DNA of 63,380 nucleotides from a virus (IMGVR_UViG_3300032046_000023:1-63380); one strand, 5' to 3'; positions 4,433-38,629 are shown, counted from the first letter of the stretch. Program-made: numbers and translations. The notes: generated from the sequence alone by a model not told the origin.

Positions 4433-6208
4433 TCAAATATATTCTCGATTAAGCCAATCCAAATTTGTTCTACCGGGATTCGGCTGATACCAGCCTTTGT
4501 CATAGAGTGTCATCAACATATCAAAATATTCATCATACATTTTTGCTACACGCTCCAAAGTAAAATTCTTCATGGCAAACTCCCGACAATTATGGGACTT
4601 GATTTTGTCGATATTCATGGCTGCCCAAATAAATTGTTCCAAAGTTCTACACCTATAACCCGTAACTCCATGGATCACATTTTCAGCAAAGCACCCCCAG
4701 TCCGTCGTGATAACCGGAGTTCCCGAAAATCCCGCTTCAATGGATACGCCCTCGAACGGCCCAATGTATGTCGTTGGAACAAAAAGGGCTTTGGCTTCAC
4801 TCAAAAGTATCCGGCGTTTCTCCAAGTCGGCAAATCCGGCATATTCTATATAGGGGGCATCCGTATCGATGTGATCCACCGGAACGCCCTCGCGTCTCTG
4901 TCCGGCAATAATAAGTTTTCCGCCGACGGCCGAAACTACTTCCTTGGCTATATCGACGCCCTTTCTTTTAATCAATCGTCCTAGATAGAGAAAGTAATCT
5001 TTCTTCTCGGCCGAATAGGTAAAGTCGGCCGGATCAAAATAATTGGGAATGACGCAATCATAAAATAAACCATCCTCCACCGCCGTCTTCCCATAGGAAT
5101 AATGCATGAATGCATAACTCTCAAAAACTTTAAATTTAGCAAAGGTCGATGGATAACCAATTCCGGATTCAACTGTCAGACCTATATTAACCGCATCTGC
5201 GACAGCCTTCTGTCCCCACCCAAACGTGATGAGTAAGTAATCGGTATTCTGCTTTCTCTTGTTTATCTCTTGAATGGCCTTGTTGTTAAACATGGTGTAA
5301 GCAAAATCCTTACTGTCATGTTTATATTGGAATTTCTTCCAATCATAATTTCCATACGTCTTAAGAAGTATGTTTTTTGTGGAAACAGGAATAAATTCAT
5401 CGCACTCAACCGTCGATCCTTCCACACCGTAAAAATAGACTTTATGACCTGAATCCTTAAGCATTTTTCCCATCTTAAGAACTTTCTGCGAGAAGGCGCA
5501 CGCCACGGCCTCATCCTTGTTTGTCGGTAAATGGGCCAATCCCAAAAGATGAAATACTTTCTGTTTTGATCTAACTACATTTTTATTTTCCTTCACATTA
5601 TGCACGGCAATATAAGCATCGCCATAAAGGCCTTCTTCGTTATTCATATTTTTAACCGTTCCACTGAAATATTTATCCAGCCATTCTTTTGTTAATGAAA
5701 ACGGGTGCCCATCCGATATTCCGGTATTAAGCCACTCGAAAATTCTAATAATTTTTCCAATCTTCTTCGCCTTTCTCAGAATCTCGTCGGGATCAACAAC
5801 GTGTTGGAGAACGTTGTAAATCCAGACCTCGTCAAACTCCTCCAGACAAATCTCTTCGGCAAATTCAATTTTAAGTTCGACATTATGAGTCTCATATCTC
5901 TTTTTAATCCAAGCCGGGAAATTTCCCGGATCAATTACAACAGCTTTGTTAAAGTTCGTGCATTTGAGAAGTAAAGAAGTCGGACCGCCGCCGATGTCCA
6001 AAACGGATTTTCCTTTCAAATCAAATTCAAATCCCTGATTTCTATTGGGAATGACCTGCTTGAACTGATCCAGGCCCATGAACGACGCATATTTCAATTG
6101 TTTCCTTTCCTCATCATGGGTATTCACGCAATCTCCCCACCACCGTCGCTCCCATTCATTCTCTTTAACCCAATTTTCTTTGTTCACTACGAGAGACTCC
6201 TTTCTCAT
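4433..6208 (-). CDS. fused SAM methyltransferase and GT4 glycosyltransferase
   Basis: The protein has 591 residues. The N-terminal half carries a class I methyltransferase motif I (VLDIGGGPTSLL, about 69-80), an acidic end of strand 2 (VVIDPGNF) and motif-IV-like VWIYNVLQHV. From about residue 215 a GT-B fold follows, with FLYLGRLIKRKGVD and the GT4 donor-site segment FEGVSIEAGFSGTPVIT (EX7E-type). It would methylate and transfer sugars, with unknown acceptor. It lies between two collagen-like fibre genes, so fibre modification is an attractive inference. Confidence 0.88.
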   Translation of the reverse strand: MRKESLVVNKENWVKENEWERRWWGDCVNTHDEERKQLKYASFMGLDQFKQVIPNRNQGFEFDLKGKSVLDIGGGPTSLLLKCTNFNKAVVIDPGNFPAWIKKRYETHNVELKIEFAEEICLEEFDEVWIYNVLQHVVDPDEILRKAKKIGKIIRIFEWLNTGISDGHPFSLTKEWLDKYFSGTVKNMNNEEGLYGDAYIAVHNVKENKNVVRSKQKVFHLLGLAHLPTNKDEAVACAFSQKVLKMGKMLKDSGHKVYFYGVEGSTVECDEFIPVSTKNILLKTYGNYDWKKFQYKHDSKDFAYTMFNNKAIQEINKRKQNTDYLLITFGWGQKAVADAVNIGLTVESGIGYPSTFAKFKVFESYAFMHYSYGKTAVEDGLFYDCVIPNYFDPADFTYSAEKKDYFLYLGRLIKRKGVDIAKEVVSAVGGKLIIAGQRREGVPVDHIDTDAPYIEYAGFADLEKRRILLSEAKALFVPTTYIGPFEGVSIEAGFSGTPVITTDWGCFAENVIHGVTGYRCRTLEQFIWAAMNIDKIKSHNCREFAMKNFTLERVAKMYDEYFDMLMTLYDKGWYQPNPGRTNLDWLNREYI

Positions 6209-6210
6209 TC

Positions 6211-15436: not shown

Positions 15437-15838
15437 TTAACTGACCGTCTGTGTGAGCGTAGAAGTACCCTGGATCGATCCGCTGAATTTGATCGCTTCC
15501 TCGAATCCGCCCGCGACTTTGATTGAGCTGAGATAACCCGATCCGGTAAAGGTTCCGCTGGAACCGGGCAGGGTCAACAAAACCGTCAGGGGAGTTGGTG
15601 TAAGTTCGGCAATATGATGTACCAGCATTTTCTGGGCGATATTGGTATAGGCAAAAAGTCCGTCAAAGTCGATGGACCATTCACGCGTTGAGGGCAGGAC
15701 TTCCCGCCATGTGTTGGAATCCCTGGAGGTTATGTCGCCTAATTTCTGGCTCATGTTCACCGTGAATGATTGACTTTCAGCAAGGGCCGAACCGTTTATG
15801 GTCAGGATCATTGTTTTTCCGAGAGCAGCAACACTCAT
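15437..15838 (-). CDS. major tail tube protein
   Basis: This 133-residue beta protein includes ILTINGSALAESQSFTVNMS, REWSIDFDGLFAY and a C-terminal IKFSGSIQGTSTLT strand, resembling TP901-1-type (Phage_tail_2) tail tube subunits that hexamerise around the tape measure. It directly precedes the chaperone pair. A small hairpin with a T run stands upstream of it at 15911-15933. Confidence 0.88.
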   Translation of the reverse strand: MSVAALGKTMILTINGSALAESQSFTVNMSQKLGDITSRDSNTWREVLPSTREWSIDFDGLFAYTNIAQKMLVHHIAELTPTPLTVLLTLPGSSGTFTGSGYLSSIKVAGGFEEAIKFSGSIQGTSTLTQTVS

Positions 15839-15910: not shown

Positions 15911-15933
15911 AAAAATCAGCCCGACAAACGGGC
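15911..15933 (-). terminator. probable intrinsic terminator before tail tube gene
   Basis: On the minus strand GCCCG TTTGT CGGGC forms a hairpin followed by TGATTTTTGC. It lies between the tail completion gene and the tail tube gene. It may partly terminate upstream transcription, setting tail tube expression separately. Confidence 0.5.
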
Positions 15934-15943
15934 CGACACTAAC

Positions 15944-16360
15944 TTATGACGAAATAATAAATCTGAATCTTATAATTCCATGCCAGACTGAGACGGCCCC
16001 GGTATCATCCCTCACCAAGTCCGATCCTTCGAAGAAAACGGCGCTGGGCGTACCATAACCATCGAGCGTGAGCGTGGTTCCCGTTATCGCCTTAATAACT
16101 TTTTTCATCATGCCGTCGCACTCATGTTGCCAAGTGGAATCACTGAAAATATGAACGGTCAGGACATTTTCTTCAACATCATAATCCCGGTTTCCCCAGT
16201 CTGCCGAACGCCTGCCGACAAATTCACCTACATAGATATAGGGATATTCGGTAGGGGCCGTCGGGGTATAGTTATAAATGTCATATGTGTTTGTATAGGT
16301 AGACGTTGTTAGTCGGGCATAGACCGCCTTTAATATTTCCGCAAATCCAAGTTGTCTCAT
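15944..16360 (-). CDS. tail completion protein, DUF3168-like
   Basis: The 138-residue protein reads FAEILKAVYARLTTSTYTNT..YDIYNYTPT.. PTEYPYIYVGEF then a VLTVHIFSDST strand, the pattern of DUF3168 (gp17-like) tail terminators that cap the tail and join it to the head. It is the first tail gene after the 8-kb glycan island, which therefore separates it from its usual HK97-gp10 neighbour. Confidence 0.85.
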   Translation of the reverse strand: MRQLGFAEILKAVYARLTTSTYTNTYDIYNYTPTAPTEYPYIYVGEFVGRRSADWGNRDYDVEENVLTVHIFSDSTWQHECDGMMKKVIKAITGTTLTLDGYGTPSAVFFEGSDLVRDDTGAVSVWHGIIRFRFIISS

Positions 16361-16379
16361 TAGCGTGTTCCGTATTGTC

Positions 16380-19300
16380 CTAAAACTTATTGATGATATT
16401 TACCAAGCCGTGTTTGCTCATAAAGTAATCACGGGGGGCCGAATGGCGATACTCGTTATATTCCGGATCGTTTATCGTGATCTGATGTACGGCCTTGGCC
16501 TCTAAACAAACCGCCGCCCGCCATTTCGTCTTTTTGAGGTTTAGGAAAAAATCCATATGTTCATATTCGATCCGAATCCGGGGATCCCAATGAATGTCCC
16601 CGAAGACTTCCCGCCGCGCCAGGAAAAAATTGACCACCTGATCCGCATAGACAAACAATATACCGTCTGCCGATTTCAGGGTCTGTTTAGCCGCATAGCG
16701 AAACAGAACCCCGTTTTCCCTTACGAGTTCCAGACCTCGGGCATAACCCTCATTGGCGAAGTATTCTCCGTTCGGTTTATAAAGCACCCCCGCCGTAATC
16801 CCTACGTCGGATGTTTTTTCCAAGACTTCCTTCATATGCCGCATGGAATCCTTATCCATGAGTTCAATATCATCATCCATAAGCAGGAGATAATCCTCCT
16901 CGACTTGCTTGACCATCGTATTTCTTCCAATCGAGATTCCACAATTGAACGGTAGACGGAATATCATATGTCCGGCTTTTTCCAACTGCTGATATATATG
17001 TTCTTTTTTATCCGATATCCGACCGTCGTCGGCGATATAGAGACGGTAAGGAAAGGGGCAAAATTTCTCGACGGCGGCAATTGTCTTCTGGAGCGGCGCA
17101 TCGCGCATGAAGGTCTTGATACAGACGGCAACCGTCTTTCCCGTCCGTCCCATTCCCTTGCCCGTCAAGTCGATTGTCTCCCGACCTAGAATCATATTTT
17201 TGATTCTCGACGTACTGATGCCGTCCGTGTAGGGCAGGAAAACCACCTTGCCGCCGCCGGTCCGCACGTAATTCTCACCGGGACAGATTTTCCAGTCTGT
17301 CCCATGCACTAAATAGGCAGGAATAATTTTGTGTTTTTCCAAATCCTTGGTCGGGTCGGTATCGTTCTGTTCTATAACCAGGTCGGCAATCTTGAGCGAT
17401 TCGATGATCCGCCGACGTTGCTCAAAGGGAATTATCGGTTTGGGCTTATACCGTTCGGCCGCATCGTCGGTTAGGACTCCCACGATTAATTTTGTCCCCA
17501 GTTTCCGACAACGTTCCAAGATATTCAAATGGCCGATATGGAACAGATCCCATACCCCGCCGATGAATACGGGTTTCGACCGTTTGAACAGATTGTAATC
17601 GACGGCCCGACAATCCGTCCAATACCGATAAATCGGATTTCGCCTTTCCCATTCCGGCCCATATCGTTCAAATAGATATTGCTCCGGCGGACTGGGAACA
17701 AAACAACGATGGTCGTGAAAGAAAAATTCTTGCAGGTTTGTAAAAAGCGATTTGGTAAAAGCATGGGGCAAAAAGTTCGTATATAGGCGGGTCGTCTTAT
17801 CCGGACCGAACGCGCCGTGCCAATACCAGTCCCCTTTTTCGTAAAAGAAAAACAGGTCGATCTTGATATCACCGGCCTTGAAAGAAAGTTCGATTCGTTT
17901 TCCTTTCCAAGTCCATTCCTTATAAAGTATGAATCCGGCCTCGATGAAATCTTTCTCCAAATCATCCCATGCCGACAAGTTTTCCGGTGCGATTCCGATA
18001 TCTATGTCCGGGTCGCCTTCAATGAAATCATTTTCCCGGATTGCCCCCAGGCACGTTCCGGCCTCCAGCCACCATTTAACTTTGTTATGTTCGAGAATGA
18101 TGACGGCCTTATCCAACACAGTGTCTTTTTCCAAATTGTCCAGAGACATTTCTCCCTTCATTTTAACCGGATTGATCGGATTCCAATCGGACCAACTCCA
18201 ATCGACTTTCCATTTTTGGCCGAACAAGTGCCAACCGACTTTCCGGTTTCTATATTTTTTAAACTCCGCATTTTCTTCGTCTCCGGCATGAATCATCCAG
18301 ACATCCGGATAATAGGCAACCTTCCAATGGGTCTTCATTTTCAGACTTAAAAAGAAATCCGAATGTTCAAAAACCGCCTTAAACCGGCCGTCCCAAGGGC
18401 AATCGAACCAAACTTTGCGGCGCATCATAAAGATATTCAGCACCATATCGCACAGGAAAAATCGTTTGCCCGATTTCGTTTTTTCCCATACCGGTTCCGT
18501 CACCCGCCGGATATAATGAGTATCGCCCTCGATGGAAACATCGGCTTCATAATGCTGTTCTTTACCCGTCTCCAGCCTCAACAATCCGCCGATGATTCCT
18601 ATATCGGGTTGGTCATCTAAAATCTGCCGCCATGTCTCCAATGCGGTTCCATCGGTGAAAATGATATCGTCCTCGATGACGGCAACGTATTTATAATCCG
18701 GGGAAATCTGTTTGAAACTTTTATTGCGGGTTTCACTTACCCCGCAGTCAAAGGGCAGTTCCAGGTATTCGCAGTTATGGTGACGGCAAAATATTCGCTT
18801 TTTGTCGGTCGGTCTGCCGTTGTCGCCGACATAGATTTTGATATCGGGATAATATCGCCGGATACTTTCTATACAACGGATGAGACAATCATCGCGCAGG
18901 AACGTCGTAATGAGGATGCAGGTATCGGAAAACAGAATCGGCAATCCCTGCCGAAGTTGTTGTTCATCCGGATTTCGCTTGATGGGCAATACCCCCGTTT
19001 TAGTCTTTTCCAATCGTTCCCGGTTTTTCCGGAGCTGTACTATATTCTCCCGCCGGTTGCCCTGACTGTGCCATTGATGGAAATAGGCCGTTTGGTCTTC
19101 GATCCAGACGGGCACTTTGCCGGAATGAACGGCGCGGATATAAAAATCCGTATCCTCGGCTCCCCAAAGTTCATACTGTTCATCGTATCCGCGCACTTCT
19201 CGCGCCCATGCGCGAGAAACGACCTGACAGGTTCCATATCCGTGGGCGGGCCGGAGCGTTGAGACCTTTTTCATGGCCTCGTAATCGTCCAACCTTCCTG

Positions 19301-19718
19301 CATATCTCTCGGGTAGTTCCCATACCCGGCAATGCAAGATCCGAAACTCGCCCGCATTGGCGATAATCTTCTCCACGAAATCCGGCGTAAATACGCAATC
19401 GATATCGACCATCATCACATATTGGCCGACGGCATATTTGATCCCGATATTCCGGGCTCGGCTGACATTCCAAGGTTTGCCGGTCAAGGTGTAAATATAT
19501 TTACAGTTCAGTTCGGAATGCCGCTCTACTGCTGCCCGATGAATATTCCTATACTCGGGTTCGCTGTCGATATCCGAAACGATAACCTCGAAACTGCCCA
19601 GTGCGGTTTGCCGGTCGAGACTGTCGAGAAAATCATCCACCCGTTTCAATTCACGGTGATAGGCCGATGTATTTTTGAGCGTAACGACAATACTCAATAT
19701 CGGATCGGCCCGGCTCAC
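16380..19718 (-). CDS. five-domain glycan enzyme: GT2-GT2-LicD-cytidylyltransferase-GT2
   Basis: Of 1112 residues, domain 1 (about 1-255) is a GT2 glycosyltransferase with acid motif MVDIDC at 103 and WGAEDTDF near 185. Domain 2 (about 262-505) is a second GT2 with VIEDD at about 347. Domain 3 (about 525-705) is LicD/fukutin-like with EAGTCLGAIR and GDPDIDIG. Domain 4 (about 715-850) is a cytidylyltransferase-like nucleotidyl transferase with HIGH at 727-730 and ISTSR at 834. Domain 5 (about 860-1112) is a third GT2 with LMDDD at 946. One polypeptide may activate a sugar or alcohol phosphate and add several residues. The acceptor is unknown. It is in series with the tail genes on the same strand. 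Confidence 0.88.
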   Translation of the reverse strand: MSRADPILSIVVTLKNTSAYHRELKRVDDFLDSLDRQTALGSFEVIVSDIDSEPEYRNIHRAAVERHSELNCKYIYTLTGKPWNVSRARNIGIKYAVGQYVMMVDIDCVFTPDFVEKIIANAGEFRILHCRVWELPERYAGRLDDYEAMKKVSTLRPAHGYGTCQVVSRAWAREVRGYDEQYELWGAEDTDFYIRAVHSGKVPVWIEDQTAYFHQWHSQGNRRENIVQLRKNRERLEKTKTGVLPIKRNPDEQQLRQGLPILFSDTCILITTFLRDDCLIRCIESIRRYYPDIKIYVGDNGRPTDKKRIFCRHHNCEYLELPFDCGVSETRNKSFKQISPDYKYVAVIEDDIIFTDGTALETWRQILDDQPDIGIIGGLLRLETGKEQHYEADVSIEGDTHYIRRVTEPVWEKTKSGKRFFLCDMVLNIFMMRRKVWFDCPWDGRFKAVFEHSDFFLSLKMKTHWKVAYYPDVWMIHAGDEENAEFKKYRNRKVGWHLFGQKWKVDWSWSDWNPINPVKMKGEMSLDNLEKDTVLDKAVIILEHNKVKWWLEAGTCLGAIRENDFIEGDPDIDIGIAPENLSAWDDLEKDFIEAGFILYKEWTWKGKRIELSFKAGDIKIDLFFFYEKGDWYWHGAFGPDKTTRLYTNFLPHAFTKSLFTNLQEFFFHDHRCFVPSPPEQYLFERYGPEWERRNPIYRYWTDCRAVDYNLFKRSKPVFIGGVWDLFHIGHLNILERCRKLGTKLIVGVLTDDAAERYKPKPIIPFEQRRRIIESLKIADLVIEQNDTDPTKDLEKHKIIPAYLVHGTDWKICPGENYVRTGGGKVVFLPYTDGISTSRIKNMILGRETIDLTGKGMGRTGKTVAVCIKTFMRDAPLQKTIAAVEKFCPFPYRLYIADDGRISDKKEHIYQQLEKAGHMIFRLPFNCGISIGRNTMVKQVEEDYLLLMDDDIELMDKDSMRHMKEVLEKTSDVGITAGVLYKPNGEYFANEGYARGLELVRENGVLFRYAAKQTLKSADGILFVYADQVVNFFLARREVFGDIHWDPRIRIEYEHMDFFLNLKKTKWRAAVCLEAKAVHQITINDPEYNEYRHSAPRDYFMSKHGLVNIINKF

Positions 19719-20495
19719 TTAACTTTCCGCGAGAATTTCTTTGATGAACGGCTCATTAAAAAGTGCCGCCGTCCTGTTTATATGTATCGTCTTTCGATCA
19801 TCGGGGATATCATAATAGCATTCCCATTTCCATTCGTTGTCCCCGCATAATCGGAGCCGGGAGCCGTAGTTGTGATGATAGATCGTCGGCTTATCGTTTA
19901 TCCAAAGTTCACAGGCATAATCCCCTTGCCGAACGGCCATATCATAAATAAGTTGGCCTCGGTTTAATTTTTCAACATCATATCCCAGGTCGATAATATC
20001 CCAATATGTTTTTTGCGCCGTATCGGTTGATCGTGGAATACCCTTGAGATACCGAAAAGACAACCCGTGTTCTAAAATAAACGCCTTCTCATAAAAGAAT
20101 ATCGGGGGATGAACGGGCCGCCCCATGCCGATAGGTCCGGCCTTACAGAGCAGACGCGTCTTGGGATTTCGGCAATAGAGACTAATAATGTCTTTCTCCC
20201 ATCCCGTTCGTTGAAAATGGGCGTCCGAATCCATGAAACAAATATACTTCCCCAGTGCCGATTCCGTCCCTTGATCCATAGACCTGCCGTGTGAATCCGG
20301 GGTATGCGGATTTTCGATGAGACGGATATCTTTTTGCTCTCGTAACCAAGTAAGACATTCCGGTTCGGATCCGTTATCAATTACTATAAGTTCATACCGT
20401 ATGGCGGTAAACCGCCGAACGGATTTAATAAACAATTCGGCCCACGGAAGTGAGTTATACATTGCCGTGATGACGCTAAGGACGGGAACGGTCAT
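19719..20495 (-). CDS. GT2 family glycosyltransferase
   Basis: The 258-residue single-domain GT2 has the start VLSVITAMYNSLPWAEL, nucleotide-binding VIDNGS and metal-binding FMDSDAHFQR (a DxD-like DSD). It abuts the five-domain enzyme (stop and start separated by no bases) and overlaps the next paralogue by ATGA, so the set is one translational unit. It is clearly paralogous to 20492-21247. Confidence 0.9.
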   Translation of the reverse strand: MTVPVLSVITAMYNSLPWAELFIKSVRRFTAIRYELIVIDNGSEPECLTWLREQKDIRLIENPHTPDSHGRSMDQGTESALGKYICFMDSDAHFQRTGWEKDIISLYCRNPKTRLLCKAGPIGMGRPVHPPIFFYEKAFILEHGLSFRYLKGIPRSTDTAQKTYWDIIDLGYDVEKLNRGQLIYDMAVRQGDYACELWINDKPTIYHHNYGSRLRLCGDNEWKWECYYDIPDDRKTIHINRTAALFNEPFIKEILAES

Positions 20496-21247
20496 CCTTT
20501 CTCCAGAATTTCTTTAATCAACGGTTCGGAGAAAAATAGAGACTTGCGTTTTAAATGTTCATCAAGTGTTTTCCCATCCAACATTAACTTTGTTTGCGCG
20601 GGATTATTTTCTTGAAATCGCGTCCCCCACCAGAAATGCGCAATTGTAGGTTTTCCACCTATCCAAATTTCCTCATGGTAAGCGGCGCATTGATAAATCC
20701 GGGTTCCTTTATTAAGCCGGACAACCTCATAACCAAGTGCCAGGATATCCCAGTAGGCCTGTTGCGCGGTATCGGTCTGAGTCGGAACGGCGGGGCTCGG
20801 TTGATACCGCCACGAGATATTGTGTTCGAGAATGAAATCCCGTTCGAAAAACCACAGGGGCGGGTGGAGCGGTTTTTCCACCGGGCCGACGCAGCCGATA
20901 AGTCGCGTCCGATCATTTTCATGATATAACGCAATCAGGTCTTGCGCCCACCCGGGTCGTTGAACATGAGCATCGCTGTCTAAGATACAAACATGGCGAC
21001 TCTTCGCCGTCTTCGTTCCCAAGTCCATTGCGCCGCCGTGATGAAGATCGCCCGTCGGCAATTCAATCAGATTAATATCTCGTTGATCCTTGATCCATTT
21101 TTTATTAACTTCAAGTGAATCGTTGTCGATGATGATAATTTCATAGGCGATATCCGTCGTGAACCGCCGGATACTTTTGACGAATAGTTCTATCCAATCC
21201 GGCGTATTCCGATGTGCCGTAACGATAGTAATAATAGGATTATCCAT
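20492..21247 (-). CDS. GT2 family glycosyltransferase (paralogue)
   Basis: The 251-residue protein carries ITIVTAHRNTPDWIELFVKS, IIDNDS and ILDSDAHVQRPGW motifs. Similar length and shared phrases (SDAHxQRxGW, DTAQxxYWDI, FFSEPLIKEIL) mark a tandem duplication with the neighbouring gene. Divergence along the whole length suggests different donor or acceptor specificity. Confidence 0.9.
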   Translation of the reverse strand: MDNPIITIVTAHRNTPDWIELFVKSIRRFTTDIAYEIIIIDNDSLEVNKKWIKDQRDINLIELPTGDLHHGGAMDLGTKTAKSRHVCILDSDAHVQRPGWAQDLIALYHENDRTRLIGCVGPVEKPLHPPLWFFERDFILEHNISWRYQPSPAVPTQTDTAQQAYWDILALGYEVVRLNKGTRIYQCAAYHEEIWIGGKPTIAHFWWGTRFQENNPAQTKLMLDGKTLDEHLKRKSLFFSEPLIKEILEKG

Positions 21248-22004
21248 TTTCCGTTCTCAATATCGCTAAATGACGACGGACTTCCTCCCATCTGGGTTGT
21301 ATTTCGGGGTTCTTCCCGCGCGTGGAGATTCCCCCAAAATGTTTTACCTTTGTCCAAAAGTAATCCTTGGGAAGCGGTTTAACCATAAATCCCCATTTGT
21401 TCTCGAATAACATTTTTTCCGTGAACCGCCAGCATGTATCCAGGTTCACCGTACCGTTGAATCCTTCGGGCGGTTTGAATTCGTTAAAAATGTGTCGATA
21501 CTTATACTGCTCGACCGGTATTGATTTTTGTTGCCAGTCGTGCGGCTCCTCGATTTGTCGGTAGAGCGGCATATTAAGCAGGATAACTTCCGGTCCCCAT
21601 ATCGGAGCATACCAGGTATTGCAATGCGGCTTAGGTCCGAAATAACGGGCTGCGGCGATATCCTTGGTCTTGTCCTGAATCAATCGGAGCACGGCAGTAA
21701 GCCAATCCGGGCATATTATTTCAATGTCGCTTTCGATATGGACGACGAATTCCGTTTCTACGCGGTTTAAAAGTTGGCTCATGCTCAAGCCGGGAGCGCG
21801 TGTATAACCGTCATTCTCGATCAACTTGATATGGCCCGCGTCTCTTTGCTTTCGAAGATATTCCCGGTCCCGTCCGTCACCCAAATTATCATAGACCAGG
21901 ATTTCATAATCCACTCCGGTCGTTCTAGCCCGGACGGATTCTATGCAGAGCTGGATAGCTTCATGGCCTTGGAAGTTGGGTATCACGATTGATATTGGAT
22001 TCAT
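21240..22004 (-). CDS. GT2 family glycosyltransferase
   Basis: The 254-residue protein has SIVIPNFQGHEAIQLCIESV, VYDNLGDG and the acid motif VHIESDIEI, the classic GT2 fold signature. It is more distant from the two neighbouring GT2 genes than they are from each other. It overlaps genes on both sides by a few bases. Confidence 0.9.
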   Translation of the reverse strand: MNPISIVIPNFQGHEAIQLCIESVRARTTGVDYEILVYDNLGDGRDREYLRKQRDAGHIKLIENDGYTRAPGLSMSQLLNRVETEFVVHIESDIEIICPDWLTAVLRLIQDKTKDIAAARYFGPKPHCNTWYAPIWGPEVILLNMPLYRQIEEPHDWQQKSIPVEQYKYRHIFNEFKPPEGFNGTVNLDTCWRFTEKMLFENKWGFMVKPLPKDYFWTKVKHFGGISTRGKNPEIQPRWEEVRRHLAILRTENG

Positions 22005-22561
22005 CGTTTAATCAATAATCCCGTTCCGTATTGATAACGAAAGCAGGGATCTTCCGGGCCGACATGAGAATAGAAAGTTATGAATTCGTATTTCTCTTTT
22101 TCCTTATCAAATAAGTTCTGCCAAAATAATTTAGTTCCATCCGGGTGGGCCGGAGTGGTCAGGATGGGATGAAGGATAATGATATCTTTGACCAATGGTT
22201 CATAGATTTTAAAATAACTTGAGACCGCGCCGTAACTTTGCCCTGCGTCGAGAAACAGGAGATTAATTCCTCCGTCTGCCAACCTTTCGCAAAGCGCATT
22301 GAAAGCCTCTATTCGCAAAGCATCGCCCAAAATATCCGGCCGACTGTACTTATCGGCGATATCAATCCCGATATGTTCCGCTCCCAAATAGTCCCGATAA
22401 AACCGTTTTTGCAGATTCGACTGGATTCCGATTTCGACGACGACGGGATGATCTATTCCCCGGTTGCCGAAATAACTTTGTAAGAATTCAAACAGGTGAA
22501 GCCATTCCCCCCGCGACTGGACGGGCCAAGGCAGGCGAAAGAATTTGTCGATATCTATCAT
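22001..22561 (-). CDS. class I methyltransferase-like protein (degenerate copy)
   Basis: Started at the ATG in the ATGA overlap, it has 186 residues. The motif I region is VVVEIGIQSNLQKRFY and the later strand is INLLFLDAGQSYGAVSSYF, corresponding to LLFIDGDHSYEGV of its upstream paralogue. The loss of the GDH triad in favour of AGQ suggests altered or lost chemistry. The family resembles CmcI/Methyltransf_24 small-molecule or sugar methyltransferases. Confidence 0.8.
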   Translation of the reverse strand: MIDIDKFFRLPWPVQSRGEWLHLFEFLQSYFGNRGIDHPVVVEIGIQSNLQKRFYRDYLGAEHIGIDIADKYSRPDILGDALRIEAFNALCERLADGGINLLFLDAGQSYGAVSSYFKIYEPLVKDIIILHPILTTPAHPDGTKLFWQNLFDKEKEKYEFITFYSHVGPEDPCFRYQYGTGLLIKR

Positions 22562-23142
22562 TTGGTATATTCCCATGCCTGTTTGAAACAAAATACGGAT
22601 CGTCCGTCGGGATCATATTTAACCATAACGCCGATCCCGCACAAGAATTGTGATTTCTCGGTAGCCTCGAAGTCCATAAACTCATAATTAGGGTTGGCCG
22701 GCCGGAGTTCCGCCCAAAACTGTTTCACGTCGGGTACTACAAAAATATCATGGAAGGCTATGATATGTTTGGTCATTTGACCAAAGATTTCATAATCCTG
22801 TTTGACGCCCTCATAAGAATGGTCCCCGTCGATGAATAACAGGTCTATCGGTCTGCCCTTGAGCATTTCTACAAGTTTATTTATCGTAGTCGGAGAATAA
22901 CTATCTCCCAAGATATCCGGCTCACTAAATTGATTGCGATTATCGATTCCAATATGAGTCGCGCTTAGAAACTGCTCGTAAAATTTCTTTTGGGCATTGG
23001 TATTCACGCCGATTTCCACAACTAATGGATTTTGGATACCGTAACCGCTAAAATACGCCTGACAGAAATTAAGAAAAGTCAACCATTCATAATATGCCTG
23101 GACGGGTTGGGGCATTGCCGCAAATTGTGTTGGGTCGATCAT
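22558..23142 (-). CDS. class I SAM methyltransferase, CmcI/Methyltransf_24-like
   Basis: The 194-residue protein includes LVVEIGVNTNAQKKFYEQ (SAM-binding motif I) and LLFIDGDHSYEGVKQDYEIF, the hallmark of the family, with FHDIF downstream. It is probably a sugar O-methyltransferase given the glycosyltransferase neighbours. It overlaps both adjacent genes by ATGA. Confidence 0.86.
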   Translation of the reverse strand: MIDPTQFAAMPQPVQAYYEWLTFLNFCQAYFSGYGIQNPLVVEIGVNTNAQKKFYEQFLSATHIGIDNRNQFSEPDILGDSYSPTTINKLVEMLKGRPIDLLFIDGDHSYEGVKQDYEIFGQMTKHIIAFHDIFVVPDVKQFWAELRPANPNYEFMDFEATEKSQFLCGIGVMVKYDPDGRSVFCFKQAWEYTK

Positions 23143-23375
23143 AAAATTATCAGTCCTAAAAATGTGCCGACGCCCGTCCCGACAGCATAGGCAATCACCA
23201 GCCGTTTATTCCAGTTCACGATTATGCGATTGAAGATGATGAAGCTGACTAAAGTAATGACCGCGCCGAGGATGGAAGCCGGGAATACAAGCCTGGATGA
23301 AATGCAGCGATAGTAGAGGGTGATGATCAAATCTATCACCATTCCCAGACTTAGATAGAGTGCCGCCCTTTTCAT
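23139..23375 (-). CDS. small polytopic membrane protein
   Basis: This 78-residue protein has three hydrophobic stretches (about 4-22, 30-50 and 58-78). There is no recognised family. Its place between the aminotransferase and the methyltransferases suggests a membrane accessory to the glycan pathway, possibly for a lipid-linked step. Confidence 0.7.
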   Translation of the reverse strand: MKRAALYLSLGMVIDLIITLYYRCISSRLVFPASILGAVITLVSFIIFNRIIVNWNKRLVIAYAVGTGVGTFLGLIIL

Positions 23376-23398
23376 GCTTGCCCCTCAATGGAGGATCG

Positions 23399-24523
23399 TC
23401 ATTGTCCATGCTTATTTTCCCATTCCCCAATCTTGTCCATAATATATTGCCTGTCTTCCCTACTTAACCACCAGCCGACCGGCAGGGCGCACTGACGGGA
23501 AGAAAATTCATCGACTCCCCTTAACGGCTCCTCCGGTTTGTATGCGGCAAAGCAGGAATGGACATCGTTTCGTTTATGAACCTGGCTCACCTGGATTCCC
23601 CGCTCGTTCATAAAGGCAACGAAGCCGTCTCTGTTATCGCATTTCACGACGTAAAGCCAATACGAACTCCAGCGCGAATCATCATACTCAAGCGGCTTAA
23701 CCGATTTAATCTCTCTTTCTTTAAATTGGGTATCGTAATAGACGGCATTTTCTCTACTACGCTGGATTAGGCCGTCAACGTATTTGAGTTGTTCAATGCC
23801 GATGCAGGCTGAGACATCGTGCATATTAAATTTATATCCCCAGGATTCAATGTCATTCTCGCAACGGAAGTCCTTGCGGTTTTTGTCCTCACGCGAAATT
23901 CCATACCACCTAAGCAACTTGCCCCGCCTGTAATCCTCTTCGTTGGAACAGCAAAGTAAACCGCCGTCGACGGTCGTTAAATGTTTAATGGCCTGGAATG
24001 AGAAGCAAGTGAAGTCTCCGCCCTGCCCAATGGGTATTCCCCGGTACTCTGCTCCGAAAGCATGCGCCGCGTCTTCAATTACCCGAAGATTGAAAGCCCC
24101 GGCGATGTGTCGGATTTCATCCATGTCGCATGGATAACCGCCGTAGTGAACCGGTATAATAACCTTTGTATCCGTACTCATATTGCTGATGATACTATCC
24201 GGGTCGATATTGCCCGTCTTGGGATTAATGTCCGCCCATACGATTTTAGCCCCGGTTGCTAGGACCGGCATATTCGAGGCCGTGCAAGTCATGGCGGTGC
24301 ACATCACCTCATCCCCCGGTCCCACGTCGGCCAACCGCAAAGCGAGCTGGATTGCCGAAGTGCCTGAATTTGTAGTTAAAATATATGGATTAGCAAGTTT
24401 AACTTTAAGTTGTGCCTCAAATTCCTCGACCTTCGGACCCTGACCGATGAATCCGCCGTGGAGAACATCGAGGAGCGGCTTGTCTACGGATTCGGGAAGG
24501 TGGACCTTGAAAAGTGGAATCAT
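23399..24523 (-). CDS. DegT/DnrJ/EryC1-type sugar aminotransferase
   Basis: The full-length 374-residue PLP enzyme has NSGTSAIQLALR (phosphate-binding), VIEDAAHAFGAEYRG and the lysine in SFQAIKHLTTVDGG (about K180) that forms the internal aldimine. Members convert keto sugars on nucleotides to amino sugars. It gives the island a sugar-synthesis step in addition to transfer. Its start overlaps the head-tail gene downstream of the connectors by ATGA, physically tying the island to the structural operon. Confidence 0.95.
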   Translation of the reverse strand: MIPLFKVHLPESVDKPLLDVLHGGFIGQGPKVEEFEAQLKVKLANPYILTTNSGTSAIQLALRLADVGPGDEVMCTAMTCTASNMPVLATGAKIVWADINPKTGNIDPDSIISNMSTDTKVIIPVHYGGYPCDMDEIRHIAGAFNLRVIEDAAHAFGAEYRGIPIGQGGDFTCFSFQAIKHLTTVDGGLLCCSNEEDYRRGKLLRWYGISREDKNRKDFRCENDIESWGYKFNMHDVSACIGIEQLKYVDGLIQRSRENAVYYDTQFKEREIKSVKPLEYDDSRWSSYWLYVVKCDNRDGFVAFMNERGIQVSQVHKRNDVHSCFAAYKPEEPLRGVDEFSSRQCALPVGWWLSREDRQYIMDKIGEWENKHGQ

Positions 24524-24990
24524 TTAAAACCAAGTGCCTCATATTCACCCAAACATTTGGCAATCTCTTTCTCAATCTCACCTTCGTATGAAAAATAACT
24601 ATTGAAAAGATAATGCCTAGCCATTTGATGATATTTGCGGCCAAGTTTATCAGTACCGATGAATCCGAATTCTATACGAGGACCATATTTTACATTTGTA
24701 CCGACGACTACTGTTAAACCATCTTTTCCTTCCGGTTGACTAAGGCCATCTCCCGGTTTAGCCGGAGAATTAATTTTGCCTTCAGACATACCACTTCCAG
24801 ACCAGTTGGTATTAATACTTCCTTTTAATCGACCACTTTTGACAGGACAAACTAACTTAGCCTGTGTTTCAATTTTGAATCCACCGCGTTTTAATATATC
24901 GGAACAGGCTTTTATTTTTATAGTTTGCCACTTTTTTAGTTTGGCCAATAATTCTGGAATGCCAACAACCTTTGCTTCTACGTCTCCCAT
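24520..24990 (-). CDS. HK97 gp10-like head-tail connector protein
   Basis: Started at the ATG overlapping the upstream stop (24990), it has 156 residues. It reads KVVGIPELLAKLKKW then AKLVCPVKSGRLKGSI and VVGTNVKYGPRIEFG, the pattern of HK97-gp10 family proteins at the head-tail interface. The longer ORF upstream of this ATG is a shadow of the preceding gene. Confidence 0.88.
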   Translation of the reverse strand: MGDVEAKVVGIPELLAKLKKWQTIKIKACSDILKRGGFKIETQAKLVCPVKSGRLKGSINTNWSGSGMSEGKINSPAKPGDGLSQPEGKDGLTVVVGTNVKYGPRIEFGFIGTDKLGRKYHQMARHYLFNSYFSYEGEIEKEIAKCLGEYEALGFK

Positions 24991-29461: not shown

Positions 29462-29635
29462 CTATTTGTTCACAGAATCCGTTACCATCTTATTTTTCGT
29501 CGGCGCGTCTACGGCCTTGCCGGCGATTTTCGCCTTTCCTTCCTCGATCATTATTTGGGCAAACCCGTCCGTGGCCGTCATTCTTTGTCCCTTCCGACAA
29601 CAACAGAAGTCCATGATGAATTCGATTTCAATCAT
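29462..29635 (-). CDS. 57-residue hypothetical protein
   Basis: It starts MIEIEFIMDFCCCRKGQRMTA inside the end of the GT4 gene. The triple-Cys CCCRKG is unusual. Downstream, 29279-29461 has no start-bearing gene, though an open frame ending in ARPERFWRDCEALGDQV runs through it. Confidence 0.6.
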   Translation of the reverse strand: MIEIEFIMDFCCCRKGQRMTATDGFAQIMIEEGKAKIAGKAVDAPTKNKMVTDSVNK

Positions 29636-30785
29636 TGCCCTGCCTGCCGAACCTTTCCTCCAACTGTTTAAATATCGGAATCCAATGCTCTTCCCAAATC
29701 TTTTCCCATTCGTATTCCCGGCCCAATTCCAAAGCCTGTACTTTCCTTGCCGTCCATTCCGCGCCTTTCCAATAGGCATAGGCAATCTCCAACTGTTTTA
29801 AAATCTCGCTCGGCCTAGCCTCCAGCCGCCATGCTTGGTTAAACATCCAAAATAAATCATCGAGCGGATCAACATGGATCAACCAGCCGGATGCGCATAG
29901 TTGACGACTTGTAGTATTATCGGTCACGACGGCCGGGACCCCGCACGCCTGAGCCTCTACGGTCGGGATGCCGAACCCTTCGCCCTTGGTGGCTAAACAA
30001 AAAACGTCCATCGCATTATAGATATCGGCCATCCGGTCGGGACTAATTCTTCCGGTATCATACTTGGCCTGATCGGGTACGAGAATATAATCCGAAACTC
30101 CTACTCCTTGGGCGATCTGAGCATAATTGATCGTGCCGCTTATGATCCCCGGCCAATGCGTATGGATATACAGTCTCGCCTCCGGTCGGCGCTCATGGAA
30201 AACTCGAAAAGCTTGCATGAGAGGGAAAAACCCTTTCCGATCATCGGAATAGTTTAGCCCGACCGATCCGATAAGAAAGTTATCGTCGGTCAACCCCCAT
30301 GCGTCTCTCAATACTTTTCGCCTATCCGGTTTAGGATGGAAGGTCGAGGTCGAGATACCGGGGGGGCCGTATAACGGCGTTAATCCCAATTTCTCAAGCT
30401 CCGCCTTTCCGTGTAGGCTCATGGCGATTTGAACGCCCGTCTTGACGGCCACGTTTGCCAATTTCGCAGGGATGGATTGGGCATCGACCGGAATATAAGC
30501 AACCCATTTATCGACGGGAAAAACCGCTTTGCCGTCCAACTGCCAAATATCCCAAAGCGTGAAAATGAGGTCGAAGTCTTCATCTTTGAGCATGAGATTT
30601 ACATGATCAAGGTTGATTCCCTCGACTATCTCGAAGCCTTCCCAATTCGTCCATTGGTGGTCGATATGCCGGGTTGCGACTCGGACGAAGTGACCCATGT
30701 CTCGCAGTTTCCGAATCATATAACGGGTCAGGATTCCATAGCCCGTCTGGGCCAGGGGGGAGACGCTATGCCAGAGGATTCTCAT
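29628..30785 (-). CDS. GT4 family glycosyltransferase B
   Basis: The 385-residue GT-B enzyme has MRILWHSVSPLAQTGYGILT, the SVGLNYSDDRKG region between the lobes, and the donor-site segment GEGFGIPTVEAQACGVPAV with the EX7E glutamates. It is homologous to the gene at 31238-32389, from which it is separated by two microgenes and an 81-codon gene. Confidence 0.93.
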   Translation of the reverse strand: MRILWHSVSPLAQTGYGILTRYMIRKLRDMGHFVRVATRHIDHQWTNWEGFEIVEGINLDHVNLMLKDEDFDLIFTLWDIWQLDGKAVFPVDKWVAYIPVDAQSIPAKLANVAVKTGVQIAMSLHGKAELEKLGLTPLYGPPGISTSTFHPKPDRRKVLRDAWGLTDDNFLIGSVGLNYSDDRKGFFPLMQAFRVFHERRPEARLYIHTHWPGIISGTINYAQIAQGVGVSDYILVPDQAKYDTGRISPDRMADIYNAMDVFCLATKGEGFGIPTVEAQACGVPAVVTDNTTSRQLCASGWLIHVDPLDDLFWMFNQAWRLEARPSEILKQLEIAYAYWKGAEWTARKVQALELGREYEWEKIWEEHWIPIFKQLEERFGRQGND

Positions 30786-31237: not shown

Positions 31238-32389
31238 TTACTTCCTGAGTCTTCTCTCCAGGTTTTCCATTATCGGTATCCAATACTTAGGCCATACCGT
31301 ATCCCAATCGTATTCAAGTACACCCTGCCTAGCCTCGGCTTTCATCTCCGCATAATCCGGCTCGTTCCAGGCCAGCCAAGCCTCCTCGAGTTTCGAGGCT
31401 ATATCAATCGGGCTGGGGTTCGCATACCACGTGCTCGTTATCGTCCCCCATTGCAGATTGTCTTCACCCGCCGGAATAAGCCAACCCGTTTTAACCAACT
31501 CGGGACATGATGTGCAATTCGTCGCTATCACGGGAACGCTGCAAGCTTGGGCTTCCAATATCGGCAAACAGAAACTCTCCCCTTTCGTCGGCAAACAGAA
31601 AATATCAAAAGCATTATAAATCCTTCGCAAATCATCAACCGGAAGTCTGCCTAAAAAGTAATCCATCTGGTTCGGCCAGCCGATCAAGCCGTCCAATTCC
31701 AGCGAGTGAGCGATAAGCGCGTAGTTGTGCCGGGGATATATCCCCCGCTCGTTGGCAAAGGTGCAAATGAAAAGCCGAGCCTCGTTATGTTCGGCATGGA
31801 ACCGCTTGAACGCCTGCATGAGCGGGATGAATCCTTTAACGTCGTCCGGGTAGTTGACCCCCAGCGAACCTATAACGAAATTTTCGGAAGTCCAACCCGT
31901 ATCCGTCCGCAATTCCAACCCGGCACTTTCATCCGGCCTGAAATTATGAGTGTTCAAACCATGCGGAGCATACAGACAATCGTAACCTTCCCGCCGTATC
32001 TGTTCACAACCGAAGGCGGTCATGGCAATTTGGATCCCCGTATTCTTCATTACTTTCTTCATCGCATAGGGCATCTCATTCGTATTCGTCGGGGCATAGG
32101 CAACCCATTTCTTTTTAGGAAACGGGGTTTTGCCCCATAAATCCCACAACTCGCAGAAGGTTATGACATAATCGAAATCTTCATCCTCGATCATCCGATT
32201 GAGGAAATGGAGGTCCGTACCGAGTACGATTTCGAGTCCGTCCGGCGTAACCTCATGCTTTAAATATTCGTGTTTCGTGGCGACTCGAACGAAATGTCCG
32301 GCTTGTTGCAACCGCTTGACGATTTCCTTGGTAACGATTCCATAAGCGGTCCGTACTTCGGGCGATGAACTATACCAGAGGATTCTCAT
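31238..32389 (-). CDS. GT4 family glycosyltransferase A
   Basis: The 383-residue paralogue of the 29628 gene has MRILWYSSSPEVRTAYGIVT, SLGVNYPDDVKGF and GESFCLPILEAQACSVPVI. It would transfer sugar from a nucleotide donor in the cytoplasm. Its last 20 bases before divergence recur just upstream of its own start, a sign that a third copy has been deleted. Confidence 0.93.
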   Translation of the reverse strand: MRILWYSSSPEVRTAYGIVTKEIVKRLQQAGHFVRVATKHEYLKHEVTPDGLEIVLGTDLHFLNRMIEDEDFDYVITFCELWDLWGKTPFPKKKWVAYAPTNTNEMPYAMKKVMKNTGIQIAMTAFGCEQIRREGYDCLYAPHGLNTHNFRPDESAGLELRTDTGWTSENFVIGSLGVNYPDDVKGFIPLMQAFKRFHAEHNEARLFICTFANERGIYPRHNYALIAHSLELDGLIGWPNQMDYFLGRLPVDDLRRIYNAFDIFCLPTKGESFCLPILEAQACSVPVIATNCTSCPELVKTGWLIPAGEDNLQWGTITSTWYANPSPIDIASKLEEAWLAWNEPDYAEMKAEARQGVLEYDWDTVWPKYWIPIMENLERRLRK

Positions 32390-33187: not shown

Positions 33188-34213
33188 TTAGCTCGCCGCC
33201 GTCAGACAGACAAACGAGCTTAACGTATTTGTTCCAAGTTTCGGCGTAACGGGATTGACCATTAAAGGTTGCCCGTCCGTCCTGAGAATCACCCGCCAGA
33301 AGGTCTCATCCGTTAAAAAACCATAACTGCCGGGTACGTCTCTCGACGCCGAGATTTCAATACTTCTATCGGCTATGACATAGTGACTAAAGTCGGCCAG
33401 GATGACATCCCCGGTCGCACCGAGAACGGCGCATTTTTCAGTAGCAATGATCGGCCTGCCGAAACAAGCGAAATCGGCTAAGTTCATAATCCCGGCCGTA
33501 CCGGCAGCCGCAGCGTTGGCAATCCCGTTTAATACCATAGGATTGAACAGCCAAACCGCATTCTGCCAAGAACCGGGAAGTAATCTGCAACCCAAGTTTC
33601 CTATATCTGCAATATCGAAATAGCCTATCGATCTTCTGGCCGTCGAAATCATCGCCCCGGAAGGCATTATCCCCAAAGGTTGGTTGCCGCCCGTGCCCCA
33701 AATGAAGTAGTAATCTTCCTCGAATGCCAACGCCCGACCGAATGAAAGCTTCATAAAGTTACCAAAGTTCTCATAGTCGGCCGTCAGTTCATTCGAAACC
33801 CACATACTACCGATTAATTTATGGGGCGTGAGTTCCAATTCTCCCAATGCGGGTTTAGTAACTCCCGAGGTTTTGCTTGCCGCCTCAGCCGCCCAGGTGA
33901 AAGTGATGCCGCCGAAATAACTTGTGGCCCGCGTTGATTCCACGAGCCTCCGTATTTTCAGCGAATCTCCATTGCACTTGAGGACGATCGCCCTTGGACG
34001 GACTATCGCATTTTCCATCACTACCGATAGAATCTCGTCGGCCCATTCCTCCGGGCAAAGAAAGCCCCCTTGTGCATCATCGCCTATCTCCATATGCCCC
34101 GTAGTCTTCTGTCTAACCAACCGATTATCCGGTACACCCGCGAGACAAGCCAGACGGACATGATGCAGGAATTCCTCAAACGACTTGAATCCGCCTTTTC
34201 TATCTGTTTCCAT
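33188..34213 (-). CDS. second major capsid-like protein (HK97 fold, no delta domain)
   Basis: It has 341 residues. It shares TGHMEIGDDAQGGFL, LELTPHKLIG and GNQPLGIM with the upstream capsid gene, along the whole HK97 core. Unlike its neighbour it has only about 48 residues before the conserved core, so it lacks the about 100-residue helical delta/scaffolding domain. It could form minor capsomers, pentamers or a specialised vertex, or be a non-essential duplicate. Confidence 0.85.
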   Translation of the reverse strand: METDRKGGFKSFEEFLHHVRLACLAGVPDNRLVRQKTTGHMEIGDDAQGGFLCPEEWADEILSVVMENAIVRPRAIVLKCNGDSLKIRRLVESTRATSYFGGITFTWAAEAASKTSGVTKPALGELELTPHKLIGSMWVSNELTADYENFGNFMKLSFGRALAFEEDYYFIWGTGGNQPLGIMPSGAMISTARRSIGYFDIADIGNLGCRLLPGSWQNAVWLFNPMVLNGIANAAAAGTAGIMNLADFACFGRPIIATEKCAVLGATGDVILADFSHYVIADRSIEISASRDVPGSYGFLTDETFWRVILRTDGQPLMVNPVTPKLGTNTLSSFVCLTAAS

Positions 34214-34225: not shown

Positions 34226-35485
34226 TTAGCTTGTTGCCGCTTCCAAAACCACGAACGGCGAATAGGTATGTGTGCCGGAATGAGCCGTCAGCGTGTTTGC
34301 GGGCCAACATTGACCGGCTACGCGAAGGACAAACCGCCAACAGGTCTCATCAGACGTGAAAGCAACGTGCGTCGAAGCATCGATTGTAATCGGTTGTCTG
34401 TCGCCGATCAGATAATAGCGAAAATCAAAAAAGCCGATATCACCCTGTACTCCCAATTCAGACAACTTTTCCGTGATAAGAACGGGTCGTCCGAAGATCG
34501 TCCAGGTAGGCCCAATCTTTGCATCGGGTTGCCAATTCAGGATTTTTCCGCTTGCAGCCGCAGCATTGCCTGTCCCCATTTGCAGCAATTCGGTCATAGC
34601 CGTCGGGTTAATGACCCAATAGGCATAACCGAGCGAAGACGGAAGCATCCCCTGATACATCTCAGTCAGGTCTTCATAGTAAATGTGGAGCAACGTGTGG
34701 CGGTGAATCGTCTTCAAGCCGGGGCAATTAAGAATCCCCAACGGCTGTCCGCCGCCTACTCCGGCCAGGAACGCATGATCCTCGAACCAACCCCAAGCCG
34801 AACCAAACTGCCGCCGAATCAACGGTTCCAGCGCGACGGCCGAATCCGCAAGTAATTCATTGGACGTATAAGTCAGACCTGCGAGTTTGTGAGGCGTGAG
34901 TTCCATCTGTCCGAAAGTGGCCTTGGAGGGCGTTTTTGTGGCAGCCTCGGCCGTCCAATAAGCAATGACCCCGCCGTAAACCGAAGTGACGTGGCTGGTA
35001 TCGTTGACAAACGGGATCTTGAGCGAATCGCTTATCATGGGCAGGACCGTCGCATAAGGCCGGACGATGGAATTTTCCAGGGCGATCTCATAGAGTTCGG
35101 CTCTATATACTTCAGGCACTAAAAACCCACCCTGGGCGTCGTCCCCGATTTCCATATGGCCCGTTGTCTTTTCAACAGTACCGGGTAGCCAGGTAAGCCG
35201 CTCATCTTTGTAGCCGGGAACCGTCCGCGTTCTGCGAACACTGAGCAGAAATTCTCCACCGCTTTTGAATTCCTTGGCCTTTCTTTCGGCCTCCATAATT
35301 TCAGGTGCAACGCCCAACTGATCTTTGATTCCCTTGATAGCGGTATCGAGCTGTTCTTTGAGCTGGTCTTTAATGTAAGGATCGGCAACGCTTTTGATAA
35401 TGGCAGCTGTTTTAGCTTCCAATGAAGCATCGACTTCCACTGCGACTTTATTTTTAACGAGTTCTTGTAACTCTTTCTCTGTCAT
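34226..35485 (-). CDS. major capsid protein, HK97-like
   Basis: The ATG with a GGAG site at 35485 gives 419 residues. Residues 1-100 are a charged helical delta domain (MTEKELQELVKNKVAVEVDA) expected to be removed by the protease. The HK97 core follows with TGHMEIGDDAQGGFL, LTPHKLAGLTYTSNEL and GQPLGILNCPG. The gene order protease then capsid is canonical. Confidence 0.92.
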   Translation of the reverse strand: MTEKELQELVKNKVAVEVDASLEAKTAAIIKSVADPYIKDQLKEQLDTAIKGIKDQLGVAPEIMEAERKAKEFKSGGEFLLSVRRTRTVPGYKDERLTWLPGTVEKTTGHMEIGDDAQGGFLVPEVYRAELYEIALENSIVRPYATVLPMISDSLKIPFVNDTSHVTSVYGGVIAYWTAEAATKTPSKATFGQMELTPHKLAGLTYTSNELLADSAVALEPLIRRQFGSAWGWFEDHAFLAGVGGGQPLGILNCPGLKTIHRHTLLHIYYEDLTEMYQGMLPSSLGYAYWVINPTAMTELLQMGTGNAAAASGKILNWQPDAKIGPTWTIFGRPVLITEKLSELGVQGDIGFFDFRYYLIGDRQPITIDASTHVAFTSDETCWRFVLRVAGQCWPANTLTAHSGTHTYSPFVVLEAATS

Positions 35486-37513: not shown

Positions 37514-37686
37514 ATAAATTATTGCTGTCCCGGGGGCTCTAGCCGCCCGGGGGCCGTAAGCTATGCCTACGGGGAAGATGATGGGCTATGGTGTCCACAT
37601 CATAACCTTGGCTCTGCTCGTCGATCTTTCAGGCCCTAGTGAATGCCTTGGTCTAATGGTCACCAATCTGCCCATAAATTATTGCT
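37514..37686. repeat. structured intergenic element bounded by 13-base direct repeats
   Basis: ATAAATTATTGCT occurs at 37514-37526 and 37674-37686. Between them are a strong hairpin (CCCGGGGGC TCTA GCC-G-CCCGGG, 37529-37551) and weaker stems CCGTA/TACGG, ATGATG/CATCAT and TTGGT/ACCAA. It lies upstream of the protease gene in its direction of transcription and could be an inserted element or a structured leader. Confidence 0.5.
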
Positions 37687-37817: not shown

Positions 37818-37881
37818 TTGCATTAATTCTACAATTTTGGCTTATTGATTGTTACAAAGTATCAACACTTACAAAGAAGTG

Positions 37882-38270: not shown

Positions 38271-38271
38271 A

Positions 38272-38625: not shown

Positions 38626-38629
38626 GTTT

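Follow-up and report, generated by a model that had tools for sequence, protein, structure and literature searches.

Virion glycosylation has been documented for few phages, and glycosyltransferases (GTs) in phage genomes are usually interpreted as modifying the host surface or DNA. That phage GTs can glycosylate virions is already known: in the tailed mycobacteriophages Che8, Corndog and Myrna, which encode their own GTs and among which Che8 is reported to have a glycosylated capsid, glycans are reported at the C-termini of the major capsid protein and of the tail-tube protein (Freeman et al. 2023, cited through PMC12619734, PMC12363180 and PMC11256854). LicD in phages has also been reported (PMC8008677). 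Here we describe a glycan island at positions 16380-24523 of an IMG/VR virus record, IMGVR_UViG_3300032046_000023 (63,380 bases; handle G000), the whole of which is referred to as the window. Like the mycobacteriophages, the window represents a tailed phage that encodes its own GTs. Lying between the HK97-gp10 and tail terminator (DUF3168) genes, the island occupies a fixed slot of the late operon in which genes are swapped. To judge from its sequence and that of its relatives, it probably supplies most of a cytoplasmic pathway by which the phage glycosylates its own virions.

The genome is of siphophage type, with terminase, portal, protease, neck genes, tail tube, a tape-measure-like gene, fibres and an integrase, and its structural genes are on the minus strand (Table 1). 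An earlier note on this DNA had proposed the island between gp10 and DUF3168, and its coordinates, strand and most of its gene identities were confirmed by Pfam, PHROGs and the sequence. The island encodes a DegT protein, a small membrane protein, two methyltransferase paralogues, three GT2 enzymes and a 1112-amino-acid fusion protein. ATGA overlaps had been claimed on both flanks; the gp10 stop does overlap the DegT start in this way, but a 19-bp gap (16361-16379) precedes the terminator. The true start of gp10 is at 24990 instead of 25149. Promoter and terminator scans of the island gave counts at chance level, which neither support nor oppose a separate transcription unit. The strongest terminator-like hairpin of the region (15915-15937) might control how strongly the cassette is expressed relative to the tail-tube gene.

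By its closest PDB entries, 4zwv, 4xau (‘putative aminotransferase’) and 4zas (CalS13), the predicted DegT protein is of the 4-amino sugar enzyme type. No dehydratase for a 4-keto sugar was recognised among the genes scanned, so this precursor would have a host origin. The closest cellular DegT genes are 25-51% identical, and their surroundings lack phage genes of this kind; the sugar and the host are therefore not revealed that way. The two genes described as methyltransferase-like in the earlier note are paralogues by sequence and match the same relatives, but the second has lost the motifs of its neighbour (DGDHS to LDAGQS, HD to HP) and is probably not a standard methyltransferase. It might be an enzyme with altered function or a structural partner. 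Because homologues of the 78-amino-acid membrane protein are located elsewhere in related phages (G001, G015), it is probably not a member of the pathway.

Relatives were found by a capsid-based search of viral contigs, followed by recovery of long records (capsid identity 48-72%); the records G001-G008 and G009-G038 are relatives’ contigs. Single gp10, terminator or terminase proteins retrieved no close relatives from viral contigs, whereas capsid and fusion alignments succeeded; the terminator alignment was too diverse for use as a search query. Wherever both positions are covered, relatives contain the same two capsid paralogues. This lineage, which has a filled slot, comprises phages from sediment and wetland. 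The tandem capsid paralogues are ~40% identical to each other and kept throughout the clade, the second being without the N-terminal scaffold-like region.

In every two-capsid relative sequenced past gp10, glycan genes start at once or nearly so after it, with an ATGA overlap in most slots. The 28 complete slots, several on near-duplicate contigs, have 17 gene line-ups drawn from 34 protein families and span 3.2-9.9 kb, with 2-11 genes each. In 27 of them, a member of a modular GT2-GT2 fusion family directly precedes the terminator. A separate search with the fusion core returned 66 loci; the contig continues in 65 of these (some near-duplicates), and in all 65 the tail terminator is next, at a distance of 30 bp or less in 62. 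This arrangement is beyond chance. Since the fusion-core search selects for the fusion, it is the records found by capsid that support an always-filled slot.

The contents of the slot vary within limits. Slots of other phages open with DegT relatives 52-62% identical to that of the window, as a DegT-GNAT pair in G002, G011, G015 and G025, and the order DegT-GNAT-GT2 is mostly preserved. The slot of G003 combines a rhamnosyltransferase-like gene, a GT2, a methyltransferase and a GT2-GT2 fusion with several genes of no assigned family; that of G027 includes a radical SAM gene together with a LicD-like gene standing by itself; G004 carries LicD as its own gene; and G023 contains one methyltransferase and the fusion, nothing else. 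Sulfotransferase-like genes also occur. The only clearly non-glycan enzyme is a DNA methylase (N6_N4_Mtase; L151:3783-4436 in G015), also present in near-duplicates. To judge from dN/dS (nonsynonymous to synonymous substitution ratio), slot genes are under purifying selection: the median is ~0.10 for the fusion and 0.095 for DegT, rough figures because many synonymous distances are near saturation. The variable content, with its one methylase in G015 and relatives, could be taken to mark a moron hotspot gathering unrelated cargo without common function. Nearly all recognisable families are glycan-related, however, and the placing of one GT fusion family next to the terminator in all slots but one, the mostly conserved gene order and the low dN/dS make this reading highly improbable. 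G003 has another insertion slot of like kind at 37656-41910 (L074, L075), between the Mu-F-like and protease genes, with GT2-like, methyltransferase-like, radical SAM-like and polysaccharide deacetylase-like genes, assigned mostly by reading.

The earlier note held that gp10 and DUF3168 are normally adjacent, and they do touch in both cultured relatives and environmental outgroups. Single-capsid relatives form the outgroup to the two-capsid clade, and gp10 touches the terminator in three of them, G035, G032 and G033 (capsid identity 37-45%; assigned by Pfam or PHROGs). The same adjacency is found in the cultured phages TMCBR2, Terrisporobacter TPDSL_ph1 and, by gene order only, Dagobah. The comparison of island presence and absence that had been suggested thus gives a filled slot in two-capsid relatives and an empty one in single-capsid relatives. 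G032 and G033 carry a methyltransferase-GT2 fusion and one further gene behind the capsid gene while their gp10 slot is empty, and so glycan-type genes at the capsid position probably predate the gp10 slot. Directly after this fusion lies a radical SAM gene (L129 in G032, 12865-13659, by reading; L171 in G033, 5880-6668, by Pfam); the G033 protein has a SPASM domain, and the two proteins could modify a virion peptide.

The fusion gene at 16380-19718 encodes five Pfam domains in the order GT2/GT7C, GT2, LicD, cytidylyltransferase and GT2. The LicD (PF04991, 3.9e-8) and cytidylyltransferase (PF01467, 1.7e-16) domains had been overlooked in the earlier note. The sole PDB match of the LicD domain is fukutin-related protein (6kaj, 3e-6), and its nucleotidyltransferase-type Asp motif (DPDIDIG-type) is conserved in the alignment of relatives. 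The cytidylyltransferase domain of the window has HIGH and GISTS motifs, and its PDB matches are labelled ethanolamine-phosphate cytidylyltransferase, glycerol-3-phosphate cytidylyltransferase and phosphoenolpyruvate phosphomutase (5x3d), the last of which we take to be a cytidylyltransferase domain from the fosfomycin pathway. Alignment of the family shows a nested series: GT2-GT2 in G003; GT2-LicD-GT2 in G027; GT2-LicD-degenerate cytidylyltransferase-GT2 in G013, where HxGH is lost; and the full GT2-LicD-cytidylyltransferase-GT2 in G011, G015, G023 and the window. An additional N-terminal GT domain is present in the window and G025. Asp motifs are kept in the GT cores of the fusion relatives.

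Candidate acceptors were sought at the C-terminal ends of conserved proteins, which were compared as clusters formed at 80% identity. Within the clade, Ser is the final residue in all 47 clusters of capsid proteins 1 and 2 and in all 24 of the tail-tube protein. The corresponding figure is 7/160 for control families taken together (portal, protease, decoration, gp10, connector, GT4) and 2/11 for the capsids of single-capsid relatives. The Fisher value for final Ser, 3e-24, ignores phylogeny, the clade being of one origin, and is not readable as a probability. Terminator and tail-chaperone proteins are also fairly often Ser-ended (11/29 and 8/25). Penultimate residues of the capsid and tube proteins vary and are Ser/Thr-rich. 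In the tail-tube alignment, with a mean identity of 40%, just two columns besides the final Ser are invariant; structure comparison assigns the window protein to the tail-tube fold. The capsid model has a middling mean predicted local distance difference test (pLDDT) score of 70 and was not used for placing the C-terminus. The pattern agrees with the C-terminal position reported for mycobacteriophage glycans (as cited in PMC12619734), and in Che8 the capsid (...KTGS) and tail (...SDGS) proteins both end in GS. There is about an even chance that the C-terminal Ser of the capsid and tail-tube proteins is the glycan acceptor.

Further glycan genes lie outside the island. The GT4 genes at 29.6-32.4 kb and the fusion at 4.4-6.2 kb that the earlier note had counted as its extension were recovered by Pfam and PHROGs. 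The GT4 at 29628-30785 has counterparts of 41-53% identity in most relatives; in G013 and G025 the counterpart is flanked by the two capsid genes and overlaps the second of them. Microcystis phage Mae-JY09 (32% identical) and Pontimonas phage phiPsal1 (29%) have full-length GT4 relatives immediately behind the capsid gene; the Mae-JY09 genome is complete, and phiPsal1 is reported to have been lost (PMC6106888). The collagen-like genes that flank the methyltransferase-GT fusion encode Gly-X-Y repeats with Thr in third position in 34/91 and 31/86 triplets, and such Gly-X-Thr repeats resemble glycosylated bacterial collagens (BclA). The glycan might then be chiefly on tail fibres, for example on these two proteins. 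Among the records scanned, however, collagen-like genes occur in the window only and are absent from relatives, whereas the gp10-terminator cassette is clade-wide; we consider this explanation improbable and reject the collagen-like proteins as a general acceptor. For the 4.4-6.2 kb fusion, taken by itself, it may still apply.

Phage GTs are most often taken to modify the host surface (lipopolysaccharide, capsule or teichoic acid), here for a late superinfection block or lysogenic conversion. Published phages with GT clusters have been interpreted in this way (PMC7029224, PMC8008677), and several features would fit: the window has many GTs and a LicD domain, a family known for phosphocholine on teichoic acids; gene content varies among slots, as in surface-polysaccharide loci; and the integrase makes lysogeny possible. 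The machinery expected for such a role was sought in seven long records, and the flippase Wzx (PF13440), the polyprenyl-phosphate initiating transferase Bac_transf (PF02397) and the polymerase/ligase Wzy_C (PF04932) were found in none (0/7), while controls were detected. In a simple hydropathy scan, 171 of 178 slot proteins have no predicted membrane segment; the sole multi-segment protein is the 78-amino-acid one, and no anchored GtrB-type enzyme was found. The cassette is furthermore located inside the neck-tail operon, translationally coupled and clade-wide, GT4 overlaps a capsid gene in two relatives, and the C-terminal Ser pattern would be left unexplained. Action on the host surface is accordingly unlikely, and from its position the island is unlikely to be expressed solely in lysogeny.

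Glycosylation of hypermodified phage DNA, a known activity of phage GTs (as cited in PMC12619734), is still less plausible, to the point of being almost negligible. No base-hypermodification enzyme was found among ten larger non-structural genes scanned, the small genes lying outside the scan; LicD, DegT and the cytidylyltransferase are ill-fitting, and the operon is shared with virion genes.

Glycosylation of the virion, which the earlier note had proposed as a pathway expressed with virion genes, is supported in part and is the best explanation when slot specificity, coupling, purifying selection, solubility, the lack of lipid-linked export genes and the final Ser are considered together. 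In the proposed mechanism, the island genes would be translated together with the neck and tail genes, and a priming transferase, possibly the capsid-linked GT4, would add a sugar to Ser/Thr at the extreme C-termini of the capsid and tube proteins. The island GT2 enzymes would extend the glycan from host nucleotide sugars, one aminated by DegT and some O-methylated. The cytidylyltransferase domain of the fusion would make a cytidine diphosphate (CDP)-activated alcohol, glycerol- or ethanolamine-like, from which the LicD domain would move the phospho-group onto the glycan, and the GT2 domains of the fusion would lengthen the chain. Glycosylation would be sequential, on assembled or assembling virion proteins, with phosphodiester decoration in the versions that have LicD. 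Virions would exit with a lineage-specific glycan coat, diversified through gene swapping in the slot; protection from defences or receptor mimicry, suggested in the earlier note, may be its purpose.

Several points weigh against this mechanism. The pathway is predicted from its genes, and a host search with the capsid model, covering ~800 genomes sampled evenly across the phyla to which the genomes behind L045 (Anaerolineae) and L031 (Syntrophaceae) belong, found distant relatives only. The choice of the capsid-linked GT4 as priming enzyme is a guess, and a cassette of GTs could have the cell surface as its target late in infection. The two-capsid phages are all of one origin, so that the filled slot and the final Ser amount to one historical association and not many. 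Capsid relatives that have capsid-side slot enzymes but not the gp10-terminator cassette mostly lack the final Ser, and Mae-JY09 carries GT4, yet its capsid ends in SLPA.

Table 1. Features of the window: glycan island, its borders, candidate acceptors and other glycan-related genes
Feature	Position	Strand	Evidence or remark
First HK97-fold major capsid protein, ending ...AATS, candidate acceptor	34226..35539	(-)	phrog_10
Second HK97-fold major capsid protein, ending ...TAAS, candidate acceptor	33188..34213	(-)	phrog_10
GT4 paralogue	31238..32389	(-)	Pfam
GT4 glycosyltransferase, second slot, downstream of capsid genes	29628..30785	(-)	PF13692, PF00534, phrog_2170
HK97-gp10 / Neck1 protein	24520..24990	(-)	PF04883, phrog_5; upstream border of slot
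DegT/DnrJ sugar aminotransferase	23399..24523	(-)	PF01041 4.9e-89
Small membrane protein, 78 amino acids	23139..23375	(-)	DUF5698-like, weak, below cut-off; 3 hydrophobic segments
Methyltransf_24 methyltransferase, DGDHS motif intact	22558..23142	(-)	PF13578; family F2, 17 members in slots
Diverged methyltransferase paralogue	22001..22561 (first read as 22001-22591)	(-)	likely ATG start 22561, ATGA overlap
GT2 glycosyltransferase	21240..22004	(-)	PF00535 5.5e-9
GT2 glycosyltransferase, family F3	20492..21247	(-)	PF00535 3.9e-12
GT2 glycosyltransferase, family F3, tandem paralogue of 20492-21247	19719..20495	(-)	PF00535 6.6e-15
Fusion domain 1, GT2/GT7C-type GT	18999..19658	(-)	PF00535, PF02709
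Fusion domain 2, GT2	18129..18920	(-)	PF13641 1.2e-14; conserved in relatives
Fusion domain 3, LicD-type phosphotransferase	17598..18131	(-)	PF04991, above cut-off
Fusion domain 4, cytidylyltransferase, TagD/ethanolamine-phosphate type, HxGH motif	17184..17573	(-)	PF01467; PDB 5x3d, 3elb, 2b7l, 1coz
Fusion domain 5, C-terminal GT2	16380..17132	(-)	just before tail terminator in 65 relatives
Tail terminator (DUF3168, now PF11367 / Tail_completion_gp17)	15944..16360	(-)	PF11367 2.5e-9, phrog_176; downstream border of slot
Terminator-like hairpin, between tail terminator gene and tail-tube gene	15915..15937	(-)	strongest of the region; total count as expected by chance
Major tail (tube) protein, ending ...TQTVS, candidate acceptor	15437..15838	(-)	phrog_1407, tail-tube fold
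Methyltransferase and GT4-type fusion, between two collagen-like genes	4433..6208	(-)	phrog_3603 and phrog_3408, PF13692
Two collagen-like proteins	3087-4118, 6211-7101		91 and 86 Gly-X-Y triplets

Two further regions of the window were noted. Between the neck and capsid genes, 26927-28438 encodes a 503-amino-acid Ser/Thr-rich protein with QEQVSDSPALTQVHVL-type repeats; at the equivalent position, G004 encodes a protein with different repeats (8105-9664). In the non-structural region, an RlaP-type nucleotidyltransferase (50708-51478) of an RNA repair family adjoins a radical SAM protein (51515-52447).

Our searches of the open-access literature turned up no published case of a glycan slot in the neck region that is fixed, always filled and subject to gene swapping, nor of a GT-LicD-cytidylyltransferase fusion or the C-terminal Ser pattern. 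The clade offers a clean case: a predicted glycan pathway has a fixed place in the morphogenesis operon, outgroups have the slot empty, and a single fusion gene has gained and lost domains as modules. It also supplies a concrete, testable candidate for the acceptor residue. If this interpretation holds, a C-terminal Ser could serve to recognise glycosylated virions from sequence, and the exchange of genes at a single slot would allow particle surfaces to vary in the manner of serotypes. More tentatively, and with somewhat less than even confidence, we suggest a clade-wide ‘glycan serotype’ locus, in which swappable enzymes in a fixed slot would build lineage-specific, phosphodiester-bearing glycans on the C-terminal Ser of the capsid and of the unrelated tail tube. 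The particle surface would then change without a change in structural proteins.

Compared with described systems, the locus combines familiar parts in a different arrangement. Che8 has no GT genes between its gp10-like and terminator genes, whereas here a fixed slot holds 2-11 genes; and beyond the GTs of mycobacteriophages, the slots of this putative pathway add LicD, cytidylyltransferase, aminotransferase, methyltransferase and sulfotransferase-like genes. Mae-JY09 and phiPsal1 resemble the window in having GT4 after the capsid gene, and phiPsal1 also has a methyltransferase and a GT2 there, but neither has a gp10-terminator cassette, and a single capsid gene is annotated in each. The gtr O-antigen conversion cassettes share a GT2 domain, with a weak phrog_841 match in the window; unlike them, the island has no recognisable GtrA flippase or membrane-anchored GtrB and is located in the virion operon. 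FKRP and fukutin pair with PCYT2, joining CDP-alcohol synthesis to a LicD-family phosphotransferase. The window LicD matches FKRP, and its cytidylyltransferase matches ethanolamine- and glycerol-phosphate enzymes; unlike in that pair, the phage has both activities in one polypeptide with GT2 domains, and the comparison concerns only how the system may work. Gut ‘Flandersviridae’ phages encode LicD and IspD, with LicD beside a nucleotidyltransferase as here (PMC8008677), but their LicD is in the replication module of some members, whereas that of the present phages is fused to GTs, placed in the virion operon and found across the whole clade.

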